Source: an uncultured Rhodospirillales bacterium
GTDB lineage: Bacteria > Pseudomonadota > Alphaproteobacteria > Azospirillales > Azospirillaceae
Direction of reading: 5' to 3'
DNA length: 50,687 bases
Assembly (NCBI GenBank): GCA_903931735.1
Contig: CAIZDL010000045.1
Location: forward strand, 1 to 50,687
Shown here: piece after piece, positions 24,332 through 46,837 of the stretch
Position numbering within the stretch: position 1 is the first letter of the stretch
Layout of the letters: each line of letters begins with the position of its first letter
The notes under the pieces: model-generated
Told to the model about the DNA's origin: nothing
The model's database searches: none
Seen by the model: only the letters and a program-made list of their open reading frames with translations
Made by a program: the position numbers and the translations under genes

Positions 24332-26047
24332 ATGCGCCCAGCCAGCCTTGTTTACGGCGTCGACGACCGTCCGCCGCTGTCGATTCTTGTTTTGAGCACG
24401 GCGCAGCAGACGGCGGCGTCGGCGGCGATCAGTTTTGCGACCCTGATCGCCGTCCTCGATGCCGCCCACGCCGATCTTGAAACCTCCAGCAACGCGCTGC
24501 GGGTCTCGATGGTGGCGTTGGGGCTGGTGACGTTGTTGCAATGTTTGCGCTGGGGGCGCGTTGGCACCGGCTACCTCGTGCCGGCGGTGTTTGCGACCTC
24601 TTATTTGCCGGGAATGCTGCTCGCCGCTCACGAGGGTGGGATGCCTTTGGTGTTTGGCATGACCATGCTGGCGGGCGTCGCGCAAACATCGATGTCTTTC
24701 GCGCTGCCCCGGCTGCGGCCCTATTTTCCCACCGAGATCACCGGGTTTGTGGTGTTCATGATTGGGCTCGGAATGGGCGTGATCGGGATCAGGGGGATGG
24801 CCGGGGCCGCGAGTGCGGGCTCGATGCAGGGCCATGCCGAGGCTGCTATTTTGGGTTTAGTGACCCTGGCGGTGATTGTGGCGGCTTCGGTCTGGAGCAA
24901 GGGCTCCATGCGCACGTTTTCGGTGCTGCTTGGTATTGTGTGCGGCTACTTGGTCGCCGCTGGCACCGGGCAGCTAGATGTTGCGACCCTATCGGTGGTT
25001 TGGCATGGTGCGCCCTTTAACATCCCCGATTTTTGCGCCCATTTACCCCAGTTTTCAGTGTCGTTGTCGCTGGTACTGCCCTTTATCGTTGGGGCGCTGG
25101 CGTGCAGCCTGCGCACCATCGGCGACGTGACCACCGCACAAAAGATCAACGACGCCAATTGGCGCCGCCCCGAAATGAGTACCATTGAGGGCGGAATACT
25201 CGCCTGCGGTCTTGGTAATATTCTTGCGGGATTTCTGGGCTCGATCGGGTCTAACAGCTCCTCTTCGGGGGTTGGTCTTTCGGGCGCAACCGGGGTAACC
25301 GCGCGCCGGGTCGGTTATGTGATGGCCGGGCTGATGGCTTTTCTTTCCTTCAGTCCCGGTCTTGCCATTGTGCTGGCCGTGATGCCCCGGCCGGTTCTGG
25401 GCGCGGTGATGGTGTTTACCGGCTGCCTGGTCATTATGAACGGCCTCTCGATGATCATGTCGCGGGTCATCGACATGAGAAAAACCGTCGTGGTTGGACT
25501 CTCCATGGTGTTGGGGATTGGCCACGATATTTTTCCCGAGTTGTTCCAGAACGCCCCAACCTGGGCGCAACCGTTCGTCGAATCGTCGGTGGTGCTCTCG
25601 ATCTTGGCGGCGCTGCTGCTGAACGGTTTGTTTCGACTCGGGGTCAAGAAGGTGGTGGTTACCAGTTTCTCGCCCGGCCCTGAGGCCGCTGAGCAAATGT
25701 ACCGCTTTCTCCAAAGCCAGGGCGGCACTTGGGCCGCGCGCCAAGAGGTTATCCAGCGCGCCATTCGGGGGGTGAGCGAGTTTGCCGAACTATCGGGGAC
25801 ACTGGTCGAACCGGGGGCAGGCGTTTCGGTCGCAGCATCTTTTGACGAATACCTCCTCACCATCGAAATTTCTTATCGCGGTCAGCCCTTTGAGATTTCG
25901 CGGGTGATGCCCACCGAAGACGAATTGCTGGAAGATGAAAGTGCTATGGTCCGGCTCGCCTCGATTTTGATGGCGCGCTCAGCCGATCGGGTTGCAATAA
26001 AAAGTGAGTCCGGCGCTCATCGGGTGCTGTTATGTTATAATCATTGA
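24332..26047 (+). CDS. NCS2-family xanthine/uracil permease with extra soluble C-terminal domain
   Basis: 571 residues from ATG 24332 (GGGGGACAGG ribosome site). Residues about 20-440 hold the NCS2 membrane core: YFPTEITGFVVFMIGLGMGVIG, ACSLRTIGDVTTAQKIND, and the conserved block SIGSNSSSSGVGLSGATGVTARRVG. It should import a nucleobase with a cation; the substrate is not set by what I see. Residues about 445-571 are an additional cytoplasmic domain (from EQMYRFLQSQGG) whose pattern of helix, long strand pair and final RLASILMARSADRVAIKSESG resembles a degenerate GHKL/HATPase fold lacking its Asn and Gly boxes. Such a tail is not part of the common NCS2 layout. Confidence 0.88.
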   Translation: MRPASLVYGVDDRPPLSILVLSTAQQTAASAAISFATLIAVLDAAHADLETSSNALRVSMVALGLVTLLQCLRWGRVGTGYLVPAVFATSYLPGMLLAAHEGGMPLVFGMTMLAGVAQTSMSFALPRLRPYFPTEITGFVVFMIGLGMGVIGIRGMAGAASAGSMQGHAEAAILGLVTLAVIVAASVWSKGSMRTFSVLLGIVCGYLVAAGTGQLDVATLSVVWHGAPFNIPDFCAHLPQFSVSLSLVLPFIVGALACSLRTIGDVTTAQKINDANWRRPEMSTIEGGILACGLGNILAGFLGSIGSNSSSSGVGLSGATGVTARRVGYVMAGLMAFLSFSPGLAIVLAVMPRPVLGAVMVFTGCLVIMNGLSMIMSRVIDMRKTVVVGLSMVLGIGHDIFPELFQNAPTWAQPFVESSVVLSILAALLLNGLFRLGVKKVVVTSFSPGPEAAEQMYRFLQSQGGTWAARQEVIQRAIRGVSEFAELSGTLVEPGAGVSVAASFDEYLLTIEISYRGQPFEISRVMPTEDELLEDESAMVRLASILMARSADRVAIKSESGAHRVLLCYNH

Positions 26048-26127: not shown

Positions 26128-27213
26128 GTGTTGATCGTCAGACTGTTCTGCACCGTGGTTGTGATTGCGCTCTTGATACTGGCGCCCGCGATATCGGCGT
26201 CGGCCGACGGGGCTGGGCCGGTGGTGCCGCGCGCGGCGATTAAGGTGTTGGTCTCGCCGCTCCAAGTGCGGTTTCTCGCTGCGGTGAGTGAGCAGCTTGT
26301 CACCAAATATCGCCTTCAACCCCTTGATGTTTCCACTGTGCTTGCGGCCCCGGCGGTCAAGGCTTTTTGCGCCGGTATCGGCCCGGAGACGCCCGACGTG
26401 ATTGCCATTCCCCGGCAGATGGCGAAGCGGGAGTATAATCAGTGCATTGAAAACGGTGTCATCGATATCGTAGAACTTTCGCCCGGCTTTGATGCTTTGG
26501 TTTTGGTGACGCGCCGGGACGATTTGGTTTTTAATATGACGTTGCGGGCGATGTTTTTCGCCTTGGCCGCCACTGTCCCGCAGGGCGATGAGTTTGTGCC
26601 CAATGCTGTCAAGCGGTGGCGGGAGCTTGATCCGCGCTTGCCAGATCAGGAGATTAACGTCCTCGGCTCCGAAAATGGCACGGCGATCAACGCCTTTTTC
26701 AAAGAGATCTTTATGGAGGGCGGGTGCCGGGGGTTGCACCAGTTCAAATCGATCTATTCCTCCGCAGATCGAGTAAAGGGGTGCACGGCTTTGCGGGAGG
26801 ATGGCCGCTTTATTGGGATCAAGGCACCGATTGCCATAAATTTTAAGCCGGCCATGGAACGTGCGCCTCGTGGTTCAATCGCGGTGGTGCCCTATACTGT
26901 CTATCAGCACAACGCCGATTGGTTGAGCCTGATTCCGGTCGATGGCGTTACGCCCAGCGACGAGACGATTAAAAGCGATGACTATGCGGCCGTATCCCCA
27001 GTGCGCTTTTATGTCAAACGCAAGCACATGGAAGCGAGTTTCGGTGGTCTCGGCGTGGTGACCGGCCTTTACAAATTCATCGAGGAGGCCATGAGCGAGG
27101 GCGCTATCGGGACCGGTGGTTACCTCGATGTGCTCGGATTGGTGGTGGATGATGCCGACGACCGTCGCCGTGACCGGGAATCGGCCATGCGACTGCAACC
27201 CTTCAAACGATGA
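26128..27213 (+). CDS. PstS-like periplasmic substrate-binding protein
   Basis: 361 residues from GTG 26128; a TTG follows at 26131 and both stand behind GGAGG. Upstream in-frame codons to 26044 overlap the permease stop and look non-coding. A signal peptide of about 25 residues ends ASADG. The body aligns by eye with alphaproteobacterial PstS: SENGTAINAFFKEIFMEGGC (PstS usually has TSGTRDAF at that spot), then CTALREDGRFI, DGVTPSDETI, PVRFYVKRKHM. The anion-binding residues therefore appear altered. No pstCAB genes are present. Its stop overlaps the next gene's ATG (ATGA), so the two are translationally coupled. Confidence 0.75.
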   Translation: MLIVRLFCTVVVIALLILAPAISASADGAGPVVPRAAIKVLVSPLQVRFLAAVSEQLVTKYRLQPLDVSTVLAAPAVKAFCAGIGPETPDVIAIPRQMAKREYNQCIENGVIDIVELSPGFDALVLVTRRDDLVFNMTLRAMFFALAATVPQGDEFVPNAVKRWRELDPRLPDQEINVLGSENGTAINAFFKEIFMEGGCRGLHQFKSIYSSADRVKGCTALREDGRFIGIKAPIAINFKPAMERAPRGSIAVVPYTVYQHNADWLSLIPVDGVTPSDETIKSDDYAAVSPVRFYVKRKHMEASFGGLGVVTGLYKFIEEAMSEGAIGTGGYLDVLGLVVDDADDRRRDRESAMRLQPFKR

Positions 27214-28070
27214 GGGCGGGAGTCATGACCATTCTGCGCCACGGCCTGTTCCTTGCGCTTCTTTTCGGCCTGCTGCTGGCGGCGGGAGAGCGGGCGTCGG
27301 TTCTTGCTCAGACCCAAGCTGCGGCTGTCGATGGCCGCCACCCTGTCGACGTGGTGCCGCCACTAGCCGGGCCTGCGCTGGCCTCCATGCCCGCCGGGCT
27401 TTCTGCCCGGCGCACGATGGTTGGCGGTCTGGAGAACGGCGGTCAGGTGTTGGCGCTCGACTTTGCCGCCGCCGACGACAGCGTTCAGGCGCTCGGCGGG
27501 TCCGGGGCGCTGGATGACACCGGGGCGGGAGATCAGCGCGGGATGCTGGGGCGTTGGTTTGACAATGTGGCCTATTGGCTTGGCACGGCCTACACCACCG
27601 TCACCGATGGTTTCACGCCGCCCTCGCCGGAAACTTTTGCCAAAGGCATGAGAACATCCAGTCCCGATGATTTTTGGAAGCTGGTTGGTGATGCCGGTTA
27701 CAAACTAAAAGGGATCTCCACCGACGTTGGGCTGGTTCCCGATGTTGCTTTCAGCTTCCGTTATGTTCGGGAATTGTCGGATGGCGACATCAACTGGCTC
27801 GAGCGCAAATTACGCCACCATGAGAACAAGTACCACGACCCATTATCCTACGCCCAGCGCGCTATCATTTATACTCTGCTCAGCATCAATACCAGCAACT
27901 ACTATTATGTTGAAGAGTTGAAGGTGAAGCTGTTGCCGTTGCCAACCGCCAGCTTTAATCTCAACCCCTGGGACAATGATTTGAACTGGGAACACGATAC
28001 GTTGCTTCGGGCGATCCAGGGGCAAAAGCACGCTCGGCGTAAGCCGGTGGAGGAAGAGTCCCGTTACTAG
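27210..28070 (+). CDS. Exported protein of unknown function, coupled to the PstS-like gene
   Basis: 286 residues; ATG at 27210 overlaps the previous stop, and a second ATG at 27225 has a GGGAG site. Signal peptide about 1-33. The middle is low complexity (Gly/Ala/Asp). The conserved-looking part is at about 115-250: WFDNVAYWLGTAYTTVTDGF, DDFWKLVGDAGYKLKGIST, FRYVRELSDGDINWLERKLRHH, ending in a basic tail. I do not recognise a named family. Context suggests an envelope protein acting with the PstS-like binding protein. Confidence 0.75.
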   Translation: MRAGVMTILRHGLFLALLFGLLLAAGERASVLAQTQAAAVDGRHPVDVVPPLAGPALASMPAGLSARRTMVGGLENGGQVLALDFAAADDSVQALGGSGALDDTGAGDQRGMLGRWFDNVAYWLGTAYTTVTDGFTPPSPETFAKGMRTSSPDDFWKLVGDAGYKLKGISTDVGLVPDVAFSFRYVRELSDGDINWLERKLRHHENKYHDPLSYAQRAIIYTLLSINTSNYYYVEELKVKLLPLPTASFNLNPWDNDLNWEHDTLLRAIQGQKHARRKPVEEESRY

Positions 28071-28097
28071 GTGCGTCAGTTAAATTGCTGGGTTAAC

Positions 28098-28200
28098 GGT
28101 TTCCAAAGGCCGCCGGCCTTTGGTGGGGTCGGAGGGGCAAAGCCCCTACAAAACATTTGGATTGCCTTCGGCGACCAAAGGCCGGGGGCCTTTGGAAACC
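28098..28200. repeat. Nested palindromic repeat (REP/BIME-like) between convergent genes
   Basis: The outer arms GGTTTCCAAAGGCC (28098-28111) and GGCCTTTGGAAACC (28187-28200) are perfect complements 75 bases apart. Each end is itself a hairpin: CCAAAGGCC/GGCCTTTGG at 28103-28123 and again at 28175-28195. A third small hairpin GGGGC-AAA-GCCCC sits at 28134-28146. It lies between the ends of convergent genes, typical for REP-like elements, and may also terminate both transcripts. Confidence 0.8.
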
Positions 28201-28282
28201 TGGACTTTTACCGTGCAATTTAACGAATGCTGCCCACTAGAGCGGATCAACGGGGCTTTCGTCGGGCTGTTACTTTTTGGTG

Positions 28283-29581
28283 TTATTCGTCGAACACCCG
28301 GGCGAAAATTGCCTCCACTTGGCGGGTATGGAACGCCGGGTCGAACAGGCCATCAATGGCCGCGGCCGGCAGGGCGGCAGCAACCTCGGCGTCGGCCTTG
28401 AGCAACGCTTTGAAATCGAGATTTTCCTGCCATGATTTCATGGCGTTGCGCTGAACCGCGGCATAAGACCCCTCCCGCGAAAGCCCGGCCTGGGTGAGCG
28501 CCAAGAGCACCCGCTGGGAAAAATGCAGCCCACCGAGGCTGTCGAGGTTGGCTTGCATCCGCTCGGGATACACCACCAGCTTTTCGATCACGCCGGTGAG
28601 GCGGGCCAGGGCGAAATCGAGGGTAATGGTGGCGTCGGGTCCGATCATCCGTTCCACCGACGAGTGGGAAATATCGCGTTCGTGCCAGAGCGTGACATTT
28701 TCCAACGCCGGAACCACCGCGCTGCGCACGATGCGGGCAAGGCCGGTGAGATTTTCGGTCAACACCGGGTTGCGCTTGTGGGGCATCGCCGAGGAGCCCT
28801 TTTGGCCGGGATGGAAAAACTCCTCCGCCTCGCGCACTTCGGTGCGTTGAAGATGGCGGATCTCGGTTGCCAGATGCTCAATCGAAGAGGCAATCACCCC
28901 GAGTGTCGCAAAGAACGCGGCGTGCCGGTCGCGTGGGATGATTTGGGTCGATACCGGTTCAACCGCCAGCCCGAGTTTGGCTGCCACATGGGCCTCGACG
29001 CTGGGGTCGATGGTGGCGAAGGTGCCGACCGGCCCGGAAATCGCGCAGGTGGCGACTTCAGCCCGCGCCGCCAGTAACCGGGTCTGGTTGCGCTTAAAGG
29101 CGGCGTAATGCCCCGCCAGCTTTAGGCCAAAGGTGGTCGGTTCGGCGTGGATGCCGTGGCTGCGCCCAATGGTCAGGGTAAATTTATGCTCGATTGCCAC
29201 CGTCTTGAGTGCGGCCAGCAGGGCATCGAGATCGGCCAGCAACACGTCGGCGGCTTGGGTCAACTGCACCGCAAGGCAGGTATCCAGCACGTCGGAGCTG
29301 GTCATGCCCTGATGAACAAACCGCGCCAAAGGCCCGACTTTTTCGCCCAAGTGGGTGAGAAAGGCGATAACGTCGTGCCGGGTTTCCCGTTCAATCTCAT
29401 CAATGCGGGCGATGTCGAAGGCGCGATCGCACGCCCAAACCGCCGTCGCCGCTTCCTGCGGGATCACGCCCAACGCTGCCTGGGCATCGCAGGCGTGAGC
29501 CTCGATCTCAAACCAAATCTGAAACCGGTTCTCCGGCTCCCAAATGCGAACCATGGCGGGACGGCTATAACGGGGGATCAT
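28283..29581 (-). CDS. purB: Adenylosuccinate lyase PurB
   Basis: 432 residues, normal for the family. The fumarase/aspartase-superfamily signature GSSAMPHKRNPV is present near residue 263, with TIGRSHGIHAEPTTFG and TSSDVLDTCLAVQ earlier. Catalyses two fumarate-releasing steps: SAICAR to AICAR and adenylosuccinate to AMP in purine synthesis. Starts MIPRYSRPAMVRIWEPENRF. It stands 121 bases after the acyl-CoA dehydrogenase gene in the same direction but is functionally unrelated and probably separately expressed. Confidence 0.97.
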   Translation of the reverse strand: MIPRYSRPAMVRIWEPENRFQIWFEIEAHACDAQAALGVIPQEAATAVWACDRAFDIARIDEIERETRHDVIAFLTHLGEKVGPLARFVHQGMTSSDVLDTCLAVQLTQAADVLLADLDALLAALKTVAIEHKFTLTIGRSHGIHAEPTTFGLKLAGHYAAFKRNQTRLLAARAEVATCAISGPVGTFATIDPSVEAHVAAKLGLAVEPVSTQIIPRDRHAAFFATLGVIASSIEHLATEIRHLQRTEVREAEEFFHPGQKGSSAMPHKRNPVLTENLTGLARIVRSAVVPALENVTLWHERDISHSSVERMIGPDATITLDFALARLTGVIEKLVVYPERMQANLDSLGGLHFSQRVLLALTQAGLSREGSYAAVQRNAMKSWQENLDFKALLKADAEVAAALPAAAIDGLFDPAFHTRQVEAIFARVFDE

Positions 29582-29702
29582 GGGCGGTTGTTTCCGGTCG
29601 GTGGATTTGTAAGGTCAGTAAGGCGTCAAAAGAGCGATTTGAATTTCATCCACCAACATAAGGAACGGACACGGGCGACGCAAGCCGAGCCGAAAGCCCG
29701 GC

Positions 29703-31487
29703 TCACAACGCCGCATCGGCCGCCGCCATCACTGTTTTTGCGCCGGCCATGATCGCGGAAAAGCGACCGCTGGTCTCGGGGAGCAGTTTTGCCATGTAGA
29801 ATCGGGCGGTGGCGAGTTTGGAGGCGGCGAGCGGGTGTTCGGGGCGGGCTTGGACCACCGCTGCCATGCGCAGCCACATGGCGCCGAGGGCGACCAGGCC
29901 AAACAGGCGTAAATAGTCCGAGGCTGCGGCGGCGGCTTCGTCGGGGTCGTCGAGGCCGCGAAACGCAATGGTGGTGGTCGCGGTTTGAAGGCGGCCGAAG
30001 GCTTTGGCGAGCGGGCTCGCGAGTTCGATCAGCACGGCGTCGTCGCCGGCCAAGATCGCGGCCAGTTCTTCTGAAATCGGGTGAAAAAAGCGGCGCAGTT
30101 GCCGGCCCATGTTTTGGGGCAGCTTGCGGCCAACGAGGTCGAGCGCTTGAATGCCGTTGGTGCCCTCATAAATCTGAGTAATACGGGCATCCCGAACATA
30201 TTGCTCAACGCCAGATTCGCGAACATAGCCAGCACCGCCAAATACCTGGACCGCGAGGTTGGCAACGTCGAAGCCAATGTCGGTCAGCAGTGCCTTGACG
30301 ATGGGGGTCATTAACGCCACCAGCTCGTTTTCGGCATCTCTGATTTTGGGGTCTGGGTGATGCTCGGCGCGGTCGATGGCAAGGCCAACCCAATAAGCCA
30401 GCGCCCGCCCGCCCTCGATCAGCGCTTTTTGGGTCAGGAGCATCCGCCGAACGTCGGGGTGGACCAGCAGTGGGTCGGCGGGCCGGTCGGGGTAGCGCGC
30501 GCCCTTGAGCGCCCGGCCTTGAAGCCGCTCTCTTGCATAAGCGAGGGCGTTCTGGTAGGCGACTTCGGCCAGCCCGAGTCCCTGAATGCCCACCGCCAAC
30601 CGGGCGGCGTTCATCATGGTGAACATGGCGCGCATCCCTTTATTGGCCTCGCCAACCAGCCAGCCGAGGGCGCCATCAAAATTCAGCGCGCAGGTGCTTG
30701 ACGCGCGAATGCCCATTTTATGCTCAATGGCCCCGCAGGTGACGGCGTTGGTTTCGCCAAGGCCACCCTCGTCGTCGGTGGGGAGCAGCTTTGGCACGAT
30801 GAAGAGGCTGATACCGCGCGTTCCCGCCGGGGCGCCGGGCAGCCGGGCCAGCACCAGATGCACGATATTGGCGGTAAGGTCGTGCTCCCCCGCCGAAATA
30901 AAGATTTTGTTGCCGGTGATGCGGAAGGAGCCATCGTCCTCCGGTTCGGCACGCGTACGGACAAGGCCAAGGTCTGAGCCGGACTGTGGTTCGGTCAGGC
31001 ACATGGTGCCGGCCCAGGTGCCATCAATCAGCCGGGGCAGATAGCGACGCTTGATCGCTTCATCCGCGTGCAGGTCGAGCGCGTTGTGAACACCGCGCGA
31101 AAGGCCGGGATACATGCCAAATGCCAGATTGGCCGAGCAAATCATCTCCTCGACCACAAAATTGAGTAATTCGGGCAAGCCCTGGCCGCCATAAGCGGGG
31201 TCGCAGGCAAGGCCGGTCCAGCCGCCCTCGGCGAATTTGCTGTACGCCTGCTTGAAGCCGGCAGGCGTACGTACGGCCCCCTGGTCGAACGTACACCCCT
31301 CGGCGTCGCCCGACTGGTTGAGCGGAAAGAGGACGTCCTCGCACAGCTTCGCGCCTTCGGTGATAACCTGAAAGAAAATGTCGGGCGTGACCTCCTCAAA
31401 GCCGGGCAAATTGGCTTCCTGGCCAACATCGAGCAAATCTTCGAGCACAAACCGAATATCATCCAGGGGCGCCTGATAGCGGGGCAT
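29703..31487 (-). CDS. Acyl-CoA dehydrogenase, long type with C-terminal extension (DmdC/FadE-like)
   Basis: 594 residues. Opens with MPRYQAPLDDIRFVLEDLL as in DmdC-like acyl-CoA dehydrogenases. FAD/substrate motifs CLTEPQSGSDLGLVRTRA and ITGNKIFISAGEHD in the middle domain, VQVFGGAGYVRESGVEQ and YEGTNGIQALDLVGRKL in the third, then a C-terminal helical domain (about 470-594). Oxidises an acyl-CoA to the 2-enoyl-CoA, passing electrons to ETF. Exact chain length cannot be told; relatives act on short or thio-acyl-CoAs and on fatty acids. Fourth gene of the beta-oxidation run. Confidence 0.93.
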   Translation of the reverse strand: MPRYQAPLDDIRFVLEDLLDVGQEANLPGFEEVTPDIFFQVITEGAKLCEDVLFPLNQSGDAEGCTFDQGAVRTPAGFKQAYSKFAEGGWTGLACDPAYGGQGLPELLNFVVEEMICSANLAFGMYPGLSRGVHNALDLHADEAIKRRYLPRLIDGTWAGTMCLTEPQSGSDLGLVRTRAEPEDDGSFRITGNKIFISAGEHDLTANIVHLVLARLPGAPAGTRGISLFIVPKLLPTDDEGGLGETNAVTCGAIEHKMGIRASSTCALNFDGALGWLVGEANKGMRAMFTMMNAARLAVGIQGLGLAEVAYQNALAYARERLQGRALKGARYPDRPADPLLVHPDVRRMLLTQKALIEGGRALAYWVGLAIDRAEHHPDPKIRDAENELVALMTPIVKALLTDIGFDVANLAVQVFGGAGYVRESGVEQYVRDARITQIYEGTNGIQALDLVGRKLPQNMGRQLRRFFHPISEELAAILAGDDAVLIELASPLAKAFGRLQTATTTIAFRGLDDPDEAAAAASDYLRLFGLVALGAMWLRMAAVVQARPEHPLAASKLATARFYMAKLLPETSGRFSAIMAGAKTVMAAADAAL

Positions 31488-31505
31488 AGCAACACTCCTT
31501 TATAT

Positions 31506-31528
31506 CAACGCTGGTCTAGCAACGCTGG
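31506..31528. repeat. Nine-base direct repeat between the fadN-like and acyl-CoA dehydrogenase genes
   Basis: CAACGCTGG at 31506-31514 and 31520-31528, period 14, in the 93-base gap 19-41 bases upstream of the acyl-CoA dehydrogenase start. It could be chance or a small regulatory site. Confidence 0.3.
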
Positions 31529-31580
31529 ACCGTCATCACCGGCACATCACGGGAGAGGGGGAACCGTCCGGCCGGGCCGG

Positions 31581-33896
31581 TTAGTTCCTGAGTGGCTTGC
31601 CGGTGGCCAGCATGTGTTCAATCCGGTCGAGGGTCTCGCGGGTGCGCACCAGTTTCATAAACTCTTGAAGCTCCAGGGCCAATAACGCGTCTTCGCCCAC
31701 CGTTTCAGTGATGTCGGTCTCACCTCCGGTTAAAATCGTCGCGACCGCGCGGGAGACCGTGGCATCGTGGGGCGTGGCCTTGCCCTGAAGGCGCAAATTT
31801 TCGATCATCAGTTCAAGGGCGACGCGACCGGCGGGACCGGGCAGCGCCAAACGCGGTGGCGGGCCGGGGGGGCGATAATTTTCGGCCAGCTCCAGCGCGC
31901 GGGCCTTGGCGGTCGCCAGCAGGCGGTCGCGGTTCATGACAATGGTATCGCTGGGACGCAGATATTTCAGCGCCATCGCCTCCGCCGCCGACTTTGCCAT
32001 TTTCGCCATGGCGATGGTCTCAAAGGCTTTGGCAATCGCAGGCATCGGCCCGCCGGGGCGCTTTTTATCGAGGTAATGGCGCACCAGCAGCTCTTTGCTG
32101 CCTCCCCACGCCGGCAATACGCCAACCCCAACCTCGACCAGCCCAATATAAGATTCGGCGTGCGCAGTCACAGCGTCGCAATTGAGCAAGACCTCGCAGC
32201 CGCCGCCGAGCGCAAGGCCGGTGGGCGCTGCCACCACGGGGAAGGGCGCGTCGCGCAGGGCCAGTAGGTTTTTCTGGCCCTCGGCAATCCGCTCGCCGAT
32301 TTGATCCCACAATGCAACGTTGTAGAGGAACATCGCGAGCCCGAGATTGGCCCCGACGGAGAAGTTTTCGCTTTCGTTGTGAATAACCAGCGCTTTCCAC
32401 CGCCCCTGTCCATCGCCGATCCGCTCGATGGCGGTATGGATCATGGCGAAAACCAGCGGGTCGAGGGTGTTCATTTTGGATGTAAATTCCAGACAGACCA
32501 CCCCGTCTCCGATGTCCCAAAGCGATGCCGACGGGTTGCGTGCGACCGGTTTGCTCATGCGTTTGATATCGCCGAGCAGCAGCACACCTTCGGGGCGCAC
32601 GACCGGCTGATAGGCACCATCCGGCCCCAATACTTCTTGCCGGCCCGCTTCCAGCCGGTAAAATGGCCGTTCGGCGGCGGCTGTGACCAAGGGCGGCGTG
32701 GCCAGCCCGGCCTTTTTCAGTGCGGCCGCAAACCAGGCTCCGCCCAGTCGGTCAATCAACTCAAAGGGGCCAAACTTCCAATTATATCCGAGCCTAAGGG
32801 CGCGGTCGATCGCTTCCAGGTCTGGGGAAACTTCCGGCACCAGCGATGCGGCATAGGCCAGCGTTGGCAGCATTGCCGCGCGGGCGTAAGCGCCGCCCCG
32901 GTCGGAGTGATCAAATAACAGGGTGAGGTGCTGGCGCGCGGCGGCGACGCTGGCGAGTTCGGCCTTTTCCGTCGTGCGATAATCGCCGGTGGTCAGATCG
33001 ATGGTTTGTTTGACCCGCGCGCCGCCGGGCCGTTTATCCAGCCGATAAAATCCGCCTTTGCCCTTGCGTCCGGTGTTGCCAGCCGCGATCATGCGGGAAA
33101 ATAGCGGGTGTTCGCGGTAAAGTGCGCGAAAAGCGTCAGCCTCCGGCAGTGCGCCGAGCAGGCTGCGCGTGACATGGGGCAAAAGGTCCAGCCCAACCAG
33201 ATCGATCAGACCAAACACCCCGGTTTTGGGCAGGCCCAGCGGCTTGCCGCACACGGCATCGGCTTCCTCGACGGTGAGGCCGAGATCGAAGGCGGCGTTG
33301 ATCGCCGCTTGGATCCAAAAAGCACCGATCCGGTTGGCGATAAAGCCTGGCGTATCCTGGCACGCGACCACGCCCTTGCCCAACCGATGGTCGGCAAACG
33401 CGGTGATGGCCGCGAGCGCTTCCGGCCGGGTTGCCGGCCCCGTTACCAGCTCCAGCAGACGCATATAGCGAGGCGGATTGAAAAAATGGGTGATTAAAAA
33501 GTCGGCGGCAAAGGCTTCGCTCTGACCAGAAACCAATTTTGCAAGGGGAATGGTGGATGTGTTGGACGAAACCACCGCGCCCGGCTTGCGCACGGCATCG
33601 AGTTGGGTATAGAGCGCAGATTTTGCGCCGGAATCTTCGATTACTGCTTCGATAATCCAGTCTGCATTGGCAAGGTGCGCAAGATCGGCGGTTAAATCAC
33701 CGGGCGTTACCAATGTTGCTGCGGCGCCATCCATGAAGGGCGCCGGCTCGGTCTTGGCCATTCGCTTGAGCGCCGCCGCTGCGGCGCCGGGCACGATATC
33801 CAGCAGCAACACCGGCACGCCGGCATTGGCGATCTGGGCGGCGATGCCGCTGCCCATTACCCCGGCGCCAATTACGGCGGCTTGGCGTATCTCCAT
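31581..33896 (-). CDS. fadN: 3-hydroxyacyl-CoA dehydrogenase / enoyl-CoA hydratase fusion (FadN-like)
   Basis: 771 residues from the ATG at 33896; the open frame continues upstream into the thiolase gene but the family start is MEIRQAAVIGAGVMGSG. Residues 1-190 are the NAD-binding domain (GAGVMGSGIAAQIANAG), 190-450 the 3-hydroxyacyl-CoA dehydrogenase C-domains (CQDTPGFIANRIG), and about 490-720 an enoyl-CoA hydratase domain (SVGANLGLAMFL, GLALGGGCEVLLNCD). This dehydrogenase-first order is that of Bacillus FadN, the reverse of E. coli FadB. Performs hydration and second oxidation of beta-oxidation. Gap of 14 bases after the thiolase stop. Confidence 0.92.
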   Translation of the reverse strand: MEIRQAAVIGAGVMGSGIAAQIANAGVPVLLLDIVPGAAAAALKRMAKTEPAPFMDGAAATLVTPGDLTADLAHLANADWIIEAVIEDSGAKSALYTQLDAVRKPGAVVSSNTSTIPLAKLVSGQSEAFAADFLITHFFNPPRYMRLLELVTGPATRPEALAAITAFADHRLGKGVVACQDTPGFIANRIGAFWIQAAINAAFDLGLTVEEADAVCGKPLGLPKTGVFGLIDLVGLDLLPHVTRSLLGALPEADAFRALYREHPLFSRMIAAGNTGRKGKGGFYRLDKRPGGARVKQTIDLTTGDYRTTEKAELASVAAARQHLTLLFDHSDRGGAYARAAMLPTLAYAASLVPEVSPDLEAIDRALRLGYNWKFGPFELIDRLGGAWFAAALKKAGLATPPLVTAAAERPFYRLEAGRQEVLGPDGAYQPVVRPEGVLLLGDIKRMSKPVARNPSASLWDIGDGVVCLEFTSKMNTLDPLVFAMIHTAIERIGDGQGRWKALVIHNESENFSVGANLGLAMFLYNVALWDQIGERIAEGQKNLLALRDAPFPVVAAPTGLALGGGCEVLLNCDAVTAHAESYIGLVEVGVGVLPAWGGSKELLVRHYLDKKRPGGPMPAIAKAFETIAMAKMAKSAAEAMALKYLRPSDTIVMNRDRLLATAKARALELAENYRPPGPPPRLALPGPAGRVALELMIENLRLQGKATPHDATVSRAVATILTGGETDITETVGEDALLALELQEFMKLVRTRETLDRIEHMLATGKPLRN

Positions 33897-33910
33897 AACA
33901 GCCTCCCCGG

Positions 33911-35035
33911 TCACGCGGCTTCTAAAATGGTGGCGATGCCCTGACCGCCGCCGATACATTGGGTGGCAAGGGCAAATTGCCGGCCGTGGCGTTTGAGTAA
34001 CGCTGCCGCTTTGCCGGTGATGCGGGCTCCGGTGGCGCCAAGCGGGTGGCCGATGGCAATGGCGCCGCCGTCGAGATTGATCCGGGCCGGATCGAGCCCC
34101 AACACCTCGATGCACGCCAGCGATTGGGCGGCAAACGCTTCGTTAAGCTCAATAATATCGATATCTTGCAGCGATAGGCCCGCCCGCGCCAGGGCCTTGC
34201 GGGTTGCGGCTACCGGGCCGATGCCCATGAGATCGGGCTCGCAGCCAACAACCGCGATTGCGCGGATTTTGGCCAGGATTGCCAGCCCGTGGTCGTGGGC
34301 GTAGCGTTCGCTGGTCACCAGTACCGCCGCCGCGCCATCGGTGAGCGGGGAGGAGGTGCCGGCGGTGACCGACCCTGCGCTGTCAAAAGCCGGACCGAGC
34401 GCCGCGAGTTGCTCTGCCGTGGTTTCCGGACGGATGCAGCCATCAACGCCAACCCCGGATATATCGACGATTTCATCGGCCAGCCGGCCTTCGGCGCGGG
34501 CCTCGCTGGCTTTGCGTTGGGAGCCGAGCGCAAAGGCGTCTTGGGCCGCGCGGGAAATCGAGTGGCGCCGGGCCAATTCTTCGGCGGTGCGCCCCATGGC
34601 GTGGTAGGCGGCGGGATAGCTTTTGGCGAGGCCCGGGTGAGGCATGGGGTTAAAGCCCATCACCGGCACCCGCGACATGGATTCGACGCCGGCGCATATA
34701 AAGGCGTCGCCAGCGCCGAGGGCAATCGCCCCCGCTGCGCTGTGAATCGCTTGCATTGAGGAGCCGCAATAGCGATTGATGGTGGTGGCGGCGATCCCCA
34801 GCGGTAAGCCTGCGAGGAAGCCAATGGTGCGGGCAACGTTAAGCCCTTGTTCTCCCTCGGGAAATGCGCAGCCGAGGATCAAGTCTTCAAGGTCGTCGGC
34901 GGGCACGCCGGTGCGGCCGACCAACTCACGAACTACGGCCGCCGCAAGGTCGTCGGGCCGGGTGCGCGCAAGGCCCCCTTTGCCGGCAGGCGTGAACGGG
35001 GAGCGGGCATACCCAGCGATAACGGCATGGTTCAT
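33911..35035 (-). CDS. fadA: Acetyl-CoA C-acyltransferase (thiolase, FadA-like)
   Basis: 374 residues. Nucleophile in NRYCGSSMQAIHSAA near Cys90; the downstream catalytic His in GGAIAIGHPLGATGAR and second Cys in LATQCIGGGQG are all present. Splits 3-ketoacyl-CoA to acetyl-CoA and a shortened acyl-CoA. Its ATG overlaps the merR stop by four bases, giving a merR-fadA-fadN-acd operon in order of transcription. Confidence 0.95.
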   Translation of the reverse strand: MNHAVIAGYARSPFTPAGKGGLARTRPDDLAAAVVRELVGRTGVPADDLEDLILGCAFPEGEQGLNVARTIGFLAGLPLGIAATTINRYCGSSMQAIHSAAGAIALGAGDAFICAGVESMSRVPVMGFNPMPHPGLAKSYPAAYHAMGRTAEELARRHSISRAAQDAFALGSQRKASEARAEGRLADEIVDISGVGVDGCIRPETTAEQLAALGPAFDSAGSVTAGTSSPLTDGAAAVLVTSERYAHDHGLAILAKIRAIAVVGCEPDLMGIGPVAATRKALARAGLSLQDIDIIELNEAFAAQSLACIEVLGLDPARINLDGGAIAIGHPLGATGARITGKAAALLKRHGRQFALATQCIGGGQGIATILEAA

Positions 35036-46366: not shown

Positions 46367-46837
46367 ATGGTCGCCATGAGAAAACACGCCCTCGCCGACG
46401 AGACCGCCGAAAGCCTCGCGCTTTTAGCGACGAAAATCGACAGCATGGACCAGCGCCAGACCAGCGCCACCCAAGCGGTGCGTCAGGATATTTTGGGCCT
46501 GCGGCAAGATGTGTCGACTCTGCAACGCGACGTGTCGTCGCTGCAAAAGGGCCAGACCTCGCTTCAGCAGGGGCAGGATTCGGTTCAGCGAAGTGTGTCT
46601 GCGTTGGAGCAGGGGCAGGATTCGCTTCAGCGAAGTGTATCTGCGTTGGAGCAGGGCCAGGCCTCGCTTCAGCAGGGCCAGGCCTCGCTTCAGCAGGGCC
46701 AGACCTCGCTTCAACGAAGTGTGTCTGCGTTGGAGCAGGGCCAAGCCTCGCTTCAGCAGGGGCAGACCGTGCTCATGGAAAATCAGCTTCAGATAAATTC
46801 GAAGCTCGATTTGATACTAAACCGTCTTGGCGGCTAA
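46367..46837 (+). CDS. Heptad-repeat coiled-coil protein of unknown function, between flhA and flhF
   Basis: 156 residues from ATG 46367, which has AGGA eight bases upstream; a TTG at 46310 would add 19 residues. Short N-terminus (MVAMRKHALADETAESLALL), then about 15 consecutive seven-residue units from about residue 50 to the end: STLQRDV, SSLQKGQ, TSLQQGQ, DSVQRSV, SALEQGQ and so on, with Leu/Val fixed at the third position, then INSKLDLILNRLGG. No signal peptide or membrane helix, so a cytoplasmic parallel coiled coil is likely. The DNA repeats in 21-base units. I do not recognise a family; standard flagellar operons lack such a gene here. Confidence 0.75.
   Translation: MVAMRKHALADETAESLALLATKIDSMDQRQTSATQAVRQDILGLRQDVSTLQRDVSSLQKGQTSLQQGQDSVQRSVSALEQGQDSLQRSVSALEQGQASLQQGQASLQQGQTSLQRSVSALEQGQASLQQGQTVLMENQLQINSKLDLILNRLGG
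46514..46786 (+). repeat. 21-base tandem repeat (seven-codon units) inside the coiled-coil gene
   Basis: About 13 units of 21 bases, with cores CGCTTCAGCAGGGCCAGGCC, GCGTTGGAGCAGGGCCAG and CTTCAGCGAAGTGTGTCTGC recurring nearly identically. The unit keeps the reading frame, so gain or loss of units would change length without a frameshift. Confidence 0.9.

Follow-up and report, generated by a model that had tools for sequence, protein, structure and literature searches.

A PstS-like binding protein and its conserved exported partner from a new family as a possible part of a binding-protein-dependent secondary transporter in an uncultured Rhodospirillales bacterium

TRAP and TTT transporters (DctPQM and TctCBA) combine a soluble substrate-binding protein (SBP) with a small partner and an ion-driven carrier. 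The closest known system to the one described here is TAXI-GltS; the part of its published account used here asks why SBPs are not found more widely among secondary carriers, suggests the elevator mechanism as the enabling property and names further classes as a test (PMC12344293). Here we analysed a stretch of 50,687 nucleotides, referred to as the window, which is the whole of contig CAIZDL010000045.1 (C45) in assembly GCA_903931735.1 of an uncultured Rhodospirillales bacterium (the source genome). The window encodes, in this order and all on the plus strand, a membrane protein of the NCS2 fold, a periplasmic binding protein that resembles PstS (PBP) and an exported protein whose family is new (EXP). 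Together with a carrier, PBP and EXP may form a secondary transporter that depends on a binding protein and probably moves an anion; EXP would serve as the bridge in it. We favour this reading, and in our estimate it comes close to an even call.

The PBP-EXP pair is conserved but uncommon. In all samples the loci were found via EXP, and the presence of a PBP was not required. For the taxonomic family of the source genome, which here is also the order, 82 genomes were searched with the EXP profile A1, and matches at E 1e-50 or better were counted as strong. EXP was matched in 10 of these genomes, with 16 matches in total (10 strong and 6 weak). Eight of the ten strong matches have PBP directly next to EXP, once in reversed order with EXP before PBP (G022). 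In the class sample at least 6 of 385 genomes carry EXP, and in all nine matches outside the source genome PBP is either adjacent (8) or fused (1). In the phylum sample of 398 genomes the source genome gave the sole strong match among the candidates scored, and the matches in G483, G524 and G553 (E 5e-5 to 2e-4) are doubtful. For the class and phylum samples at most seven candidates were scored per genome, which makes these EXP counts lower bounds. When an EXP alignment was used to scan 84,980 species, PBP was found directly upstream of EXP in 39 of 39 loci. The hosts are Stella, Magnetospirillum aberrantis, Roseomonas, Falsiroseomonas, Neoroseomonas and many metagenome bins; nine of the 39 loci lie on contigs that have the same lengths as contigs of the other samples, so the sets overlap. 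A preliminary description of this DNA, made from the sequence alone, had proposed co-occurrence of the two genes as a check, and the pair proved to be conserved in the family sample, the class sample and the species scan. The same description had taken the EXP core for widespread, which the class and phylum counts contradict.

The source genome carries a second PBP-EXP pair on contig C55 (G000:C55:36524-38331, equal to L010 6525-8332). The gene directly 5' of it was judged ilvD-like by eye, and the stretch analysed there contains none of the three candidate carriers introduced below. Bins labelled Asaia bogorensis (L076, L080, L090 and L106) also carry the system, and this label is doubtful. 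The weak EXP-like domains of the family sample lie at L048 5935-6894, L049 6287-6934, L050 6057-6671, L051 5429-6166, L052 6055-6927 and L053 6017-6988, and the proteins in L052 and L053 each seem to carry two EXP-like copies. Three further family matches (G067, G070 and G072) were rejected, as they covered only residues 39-105 within frames of 837-878 amino acids and vanished with the profile.

EXP is found fused to PBP as well as to a carrier. In an alphaproteobacterial bin (L063 in G396) a single frame of 526 amino acids joins a PBP domain (residues 44-350) to an EXP domain (residues 411-522). The EXP part matches an EXP profile built without L063 with a probability of 97.5% (E 5.9e-12), and in a model of the fusion the order of its helices and strands agrees with the core of the window EXP. 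This model was rejected as a view of the PBP-EXP interface (pTM 0.60, with the linker and the C-terminal part weak). In L068 (G428) a protein of 787 amino acids consists of EXP fused to an Na_Pi_cotrans domain (PF02690, E 1.8e-25). Each fusion type comes from one genome, and for either alone an assembly or sequencing fault is possible.

With the L068 fusion included, an Na+/phosphate (Na/Pi) cotransporter stands immediately 3' of EXP in nine loci of the 39-locus scan. A tree of 41 PBPs places all nine Na/Pi-linked rows within one group of 11 rows with a support of 99/99; as to the remaining two, the carrier gene of L083 lies on the opposite strand at a distance of 3.4 kb, and the sequence of L114 stops where its contig ends. 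In four of six Na/Pi proteins it was possible to read the loop that follows transmembrane segment 1 (TM1) of the carrier, and it holds 3-7 K/R and 0-2 D/E. By the positive-inside rule such a positively charged loop would place the N-terminus of the carrier, and hence the fused EXP, in the periplasm. PF02690 has no match in the source genome. Besides its pair-linked carrier, the genome of the PBP-EXP fusion contains two tandem Na/Pi cotransporter frames (G396:C17:122959-125408).

The window PBP belongs to the periplasmic-binding-protein superfamily, as it matches PF12849 over cut-off (E 4.3e-14), and scores below the threshold of the PstS-family model TIGR02136 (37.6 bits, cut-off 206.6 bits). 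Its closest solved chain is the phosphate-binding protein 9jwy (E 1e-31, family profile E 5e-78). Contig C70 of the source genome encodes a further PstS-type protein, whose loops resemble those in 9jwy; the window PBP neither groups with it nor keeps its loops. The changed anion-binding loop noticed in the preliminary description was confirmed by this comparison, PBP reading SENGTAINAF where the C70 protein reads VHGTRDAF, and the other three pocket loops are altered as well (VSPLQVRF for GSSTVFPF, TVLAAPAV for STGTGGGF and AIPRQM for NASRPI). All four phosphate loops are thus altered in the PBPs of the window clade (VSPLQVRF, TVLAAPAV, AIPRQM and GTAINAFF). The Na/Pi-linked PBPs retain loops of the PstS form, as in L065 with GSTFLAPF, FGGTGRGV, AMSRRI and GLGSRGFF. 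By clade the loop change goes together with the permease, albeit imperfectly, because the PBP of L026 has remodelled loops although this locus has no NCS2 permease.

A PstS relative could also feed an ABC transporter that is encoded elsewhere, for instance Pst, with EXP as an accessory protein or chaperone. The superfamily of PBP would fit this, and PstB is present above cut-off on contig C182 of the source genome. However, no PstB-profile match was found on contig C45 (PstA and PstC were not searched for), so that the earlier statement that pstCAB is missing nearby holds for PstB. Moreover, the C70 protein supplies the genome with a PstS-type protein whose loops are 9jwy-like, and both the fusions and the gene adjacency favour secondary carriers. 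We therefore regard an ABC transporter as a very improbable partner of PBP. A fourth PF12849 protein of the source genome lies on contig C175 beside a permease-like gene; its reading as a tungstate-type protein was made by eye only.

The permease upstream of the pair matches PF00860 over cut-off (E 3.6e-40) and stays under the NCBIfam cut-offs of TIGR00801 and TIGR03173. An NCS2-fold permease stands upstream of the pair in the window, L024 and L025, and among ten chosen family genomes searched it is present in three, always beside the pair. The unit NCS2-PBP-EXP is all that the window and L025 (the G047 locus) have in common, since their other neighbours differ. In UraA uracil is held by Glu241 and Glu290, according to the portion of PMC5539350 used here. 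The corresponding residues E356 and Q408 of UapA form the substrate site, and E356 is described as irreplaceable in the excerpt of PMC3405029 at hand. These NCS2 nucleobase-carrier residues (Glu in TM8 and Gln/Glu in TM10) are absent from the window permease: Arg261 aligns with UraA E241, within the CECIGD stretch of UapA, and Ser312 aligns with UraA E290. Both replacements are invariant in L024 and L025. As both substrate residues are replaced, a role of the window permease as nucleobase carrier is very unlikely on sequence grounds. The arginine in its substrate site suggests an anion as substrate, by analogy with the SLC4/SLC26 relatives of the same fold. The permease also has a C-terminal extension that is conserved in L024 and L025 and gave neither a Pfam match at E 0.1 nor a solved relative with E below 0.76. 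The earlier view of a modified permease is thereby borne out, and its grouping with the pair in one module is strengthened by the unit shared with L025 and by the Na/Pi partner, once fused to EXP, in other genomes.

From this pattern we infer a physical complex, transport, the kind of ligand and the direction of movement. The solute would be captured in the periplasm by the PstS-like PBP, and the loaded PBP would be held or docked onto the inner-membrane carrier by EXP, an exported alpha/beta protein. The ion-driven carrier would then move the solute inward. In the window as well as in the nine Na/Pi loci the gene of an SBP is linked to that of an ion-driven carrier, and an elevator-like motion has been described or modelled for relatives of both carriers: UraA combines it with rocking (in the part of PMC5539350 considered), NaPi-II carriers were modelled as elevators (likewise in part of PMC6325988), and elevator-type carriers are the class suggested as able to use an SBP (PMC12344293, in the portion used here). 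Where the carrier is an Na+/phosphate cotransporter the ligand is probably phosphate, because the carrier family and the PstS-form loops of the PBPs point the same way. For the window system another anion is probably bound, as the nucleobase-binding Glu is now Arg and the PBP loops are remodelled.

More tentatively, and clearly below even confidence, one periplasmic pair of a PstS-type SBP and a new adaptor family may have been combined with unrelated carriers and thus make up a further class of SBP-dependent secondary anion transporters. This wider reading includes the Na+/phosphate cotransporter, an NCS2-fold protein turned from nucleobase to anion by the Glu-to-Arg exchange, and perhaps bestrophin-like anion proteins. 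If true, the PstS-type protein with an Na+/phosphate cotransporter and the pair with an NCS2-fold protein would be two tests of SBP use on different carrier folds. It would also mean an SBP partner for a phosphate carrier family and the recruitment of a nucleobase-carrier fold for another substrate.

The neighbours of EXP were surveyed in 48 loci with seeded profiles and tallied by hand; two of these loci have EXP but no PBP, a distant NCS2 match in L093 was left out of the tally, and the counts are not independent as many loci are close relatives. Genes were called with a codon-score caller, since clustering over all open frames gave many false frames in this GC-rich DNA. Among the profiles 'MlaFE' seems to catch any ABC ATPase, and p144 and CAlike cross-match. 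In L100 and L103 EXP was masked by the overlap filter, but it is shown there by the 39-locus scan. In 38 of the 48 loci one of three membrane partners (Na/Pi cotransporter, NCS2-fold or bestrophin-like protein) is encoded within the stretch.

Several observations weigh against a transporter built from PBP, EXP and a carrier. None of the three membrane partners was found in the stretch available for the other 10 loci, which include the second pair of the source genome; two of the 10 end with the contig just after EXP. Two strong EXP loci (G081 and G077) have no PstS-like neighbour, and the six weak EXP-domain matches in the family stand alone with no PBP nearby. A pair of the window type is present in G050 (L026), but this genome has no NCS2 match. 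The window and L024 share both flanks and hence do not count as independent cases. The model of the L063 fusion shows no confident domain arrangement. Many loci of the Acetobacteraceae type lie in a larger cluster with bestrophin-like, coiled-coil and DUF6524 proteins, unlike a simple transporter. In addition, histidine kinases are encoded convergently, 3' of the pair, in four of the eight PBP-EXP loci of the window's family.

These kinases would fit a sensing module, in which PBP reports its ligand via EXP to a carrier-like receptor or to a sensor kinase, with little transport. A syntenic hybrid kinase, whose Cache match is below threshold, is shared by L025 (3434-5944) and L026 (7021-9534); L010 (9601-11547) has a PAS kinase that is separated from the pair by one gene, and L027 (2424-6524) a CheB/CheR-PAS kinase. 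Further points in this direction are the window permease with its extension of unknown kind and without both nucleobase residues, the SpoIIE/HATPase and STAS proteins near the pair in L083, and the pairs that have no carrier at all. On the other hand the kinases belong to three dissimilar types and lie on the opposite strand, and none was found beside the window pair or L024 (the wider set was not searched systematically for kinases). The recurrent neighbours in the wider set are membrane proteins of the transport type, one of them fused to EXP, and the Na/Pi-linked PBPs keep PstS-form loops. We consider sensing unlikely, although it deserves more weight than the ABC transporter discussed above. 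The preliminary description had left sensing and uptake side by side; uptake is the better supported of the two, and sensing is kept alive by the kinases near the four family pairs.

The larger clusters could also reflect an envelope-organisation or anion-channel complex in which PBP and EXP are a structural periplasmic part and the carriers secondary recruits. Bestrophin-like proteins occur in 25 of the 48 loci (those of the Roseomonadaceae type, plus G081 and G077), single-TM coiled-coil proteins with weak matches to Mitofilin in 27, DUF6524 in nine and a ParA-like ATPase in four. However, none of these proteins was found near the window pair, most Na/Pi loci are without them, and the EXP-carrier fusion would be left unexplained. 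Such a complex is in our view improbable.

Envelope clusters of this kind around PBP-EXP span L083 2539-13004, L063 1729-15560 and L099 4842-14334, with SpoIIE and STAS proteins in L083 and an ABC-MlaE fusion protein in L063 as extras; one of the same kind surrounds EXP alone in L030 (1283-12001). The individual clusters do not each contain the full set of components. A conserved, exported-looking protein of no known family lies near EXP in two loci without a PstS-like PBP (L030 4461-5426 and L029 7169-8134). By eye the gene beside EXP in G081 and G077 had given the impression of a TAXI-type binding protein. This was rejected, as the protein has no Pfam match over cut-off, no solved relative and no profile match with the PBPs.

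The description of PBP and EXP as a PstS-like protein paired with an exported protein of unknown family was upheld. The two genes are adjacent, and both products have N-termini that look like signal peptides when judged by eye. Neither Pfam nor NCBIfam gave a match over cut-off for EXP, the best being DUF6396 at E 0.052. For an alignment of 37 EXP members none of the 37 matched NCBIfam at E 0.01, and one matched Pfam (MtrF, E 0.0094), which was taken as chance. The AlphaFold2 model of EXP has a core in the order helix-strand-strand-helix-helix-strand-strand. The block pLDDT is about 87-94 over residues 147-250, compared to 70.7 for the whole protein (pTM 0.59). Against solved structures Foldseek gave no match at E 0.001, and in a structure comparison the best Z was 5.5, reached with DcrB and a second chain. 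With no clear structural match the fold of EXP is neutral on its role as bridge. Two folds were considered for EXP, DcrB/PsbP-like and PilO-like; the latter, as in the bridge domain of TAXI-GltS, was set aside (PilO at Z 3.9, Foldseek rank 37, E 1.3).

The coupling of the two genes by ATGA, as described earlier, stood in part. The ATGA is present, but EXP likely starts at the ATG at 27225 instead, judging from the sequence: this second in-frame ATG has GGGAG immediately upstream, and in the nearest ortholog, L024, the range from -40 to +90 relative to the PBP stop contains a single EXP start, at +11. Across 46 PBP-EXP pairs a start codon with an overlap of exactly four bases is available in 14; tight joining is common, and ATGA itself is not the conserved feature. 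The positions of all features are listed in Table 1.

Table 1. Positions of the proposed module and its features in the window.
Feature	Position	Strand	Basis
Membrane protein of the NCS2 fold (xanthine/uracil permease family), 571 aa; would act as carrier in the module	24332..26047	+	PF00860
Codon of Arg261 of the permease	25112..25114	+	Column of UraA E241 / UapA E356; pairwise alignments with solved NCS2 chains
Codon of Ser312 of the permease	25265..25267	+	Aligns with UraA E290; the part of PMC3405029 used equates this residue with UapA Q408
C-terminal extension of the permease, outside all known families	25634..26044	+	Conserved in L024 and L025
PBP, PstS-like periplasmic binding protein; GTG start at 26128 (or 26122)	26128..27213	+	PF12849, 9jwy
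Altered PBP pocket loop SENGTAIN	26668..26691	+	The PstS-type protein on C70 has VHGTRDAF
ATGA overlap; EXP could start here, although 27225 is likelier	27210..27213	+	Sequence reading, ortholog starts
EXP (281 aa), exported and of a new family; would bridge PBP and carrier	27225..28070	+	
Conserved EXP core, residues 147-250	27663..27974	+	AlphaFold2 model

Seven flanking proteins of the window were scanned. They comprise glycosyltransferase-type proteins, a lyase resembling adenylosuccinate lyase and a set for fatty-acid oxidation, and one has no match; at E 1e-10 none of them was recognised as a component of an ABC or TRAP system. The minus strand at 28283-35035 encodes an adenylosuccinate lyase-type enzyme, an acyl-CoA dehydrogenase, a 3-hydroxyacyl-CoA dehydrogenase/hydratase and a thiolase, an ordinary set. 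Just 3' of EXP, at 28090-28205, palindrome-like repeats around 'aaaggccg...cggcctttgg' were seen by eye and are perhaps a terminator or a REP-like element. A tandem repeat of 21/42/84 bases lies at 46566-46765, apparently within a coding frame.

Judged by titles and abstract starts, literature searches among open-licence PMC papers returned none on such a PBP-EXP pair, and several described systems share parts of it. UraA and UapA (NCS2, SLC23) represent the fold family of the window permease, which differs from them by the Arg in place of the substrate Glu, the Ser at the second substrate position and the extra C-terminal part. PstSCAB provides a relative of PBP, but in the window there is no PstB-profile match on the contig, the pocket loops of the clade are changed and EXP is a new partner. 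The Npt/YjbB Na+/phosphate cotransporters (PF02690) include the carrier that adjoins EXP or is fused with it, and they are not known to use an SBP. In the section of PMC7250820 drawn on here, Npt is listed separately from Pst, the system fed by PstS.

With TRAP and TTT transporters the system would share the three-part logic of PBP, EXP and carrier. Unlike in these, the window carrier belongs to PF00860 and not to DctM/TctA, no such part was found among the seven flanking proteins (E 1e-10), and the window EXP looks exported and soluble, whereas DctQ/TctB have four TMs. The likeness to TAXI-GltS is closer. As far as the available part of its description goes (PMC12344293), there too the gene of an SBP is coupled to a secondary carrier outside TRAP/TTT, fusions occur, a bridging role is proposed for an additional alpha/beta part, and the carrier is of the elevator type. 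The systems differ in that the TAXI SBP carries the extra domains itself, whereas here a PstS-type SBP (PF12849) is accompanied by a separate adaptor family, and in that the carriers here are an Na/Pi cotransporter or an NCS2-fold protein (PF00860 in the window) in place of GltS.

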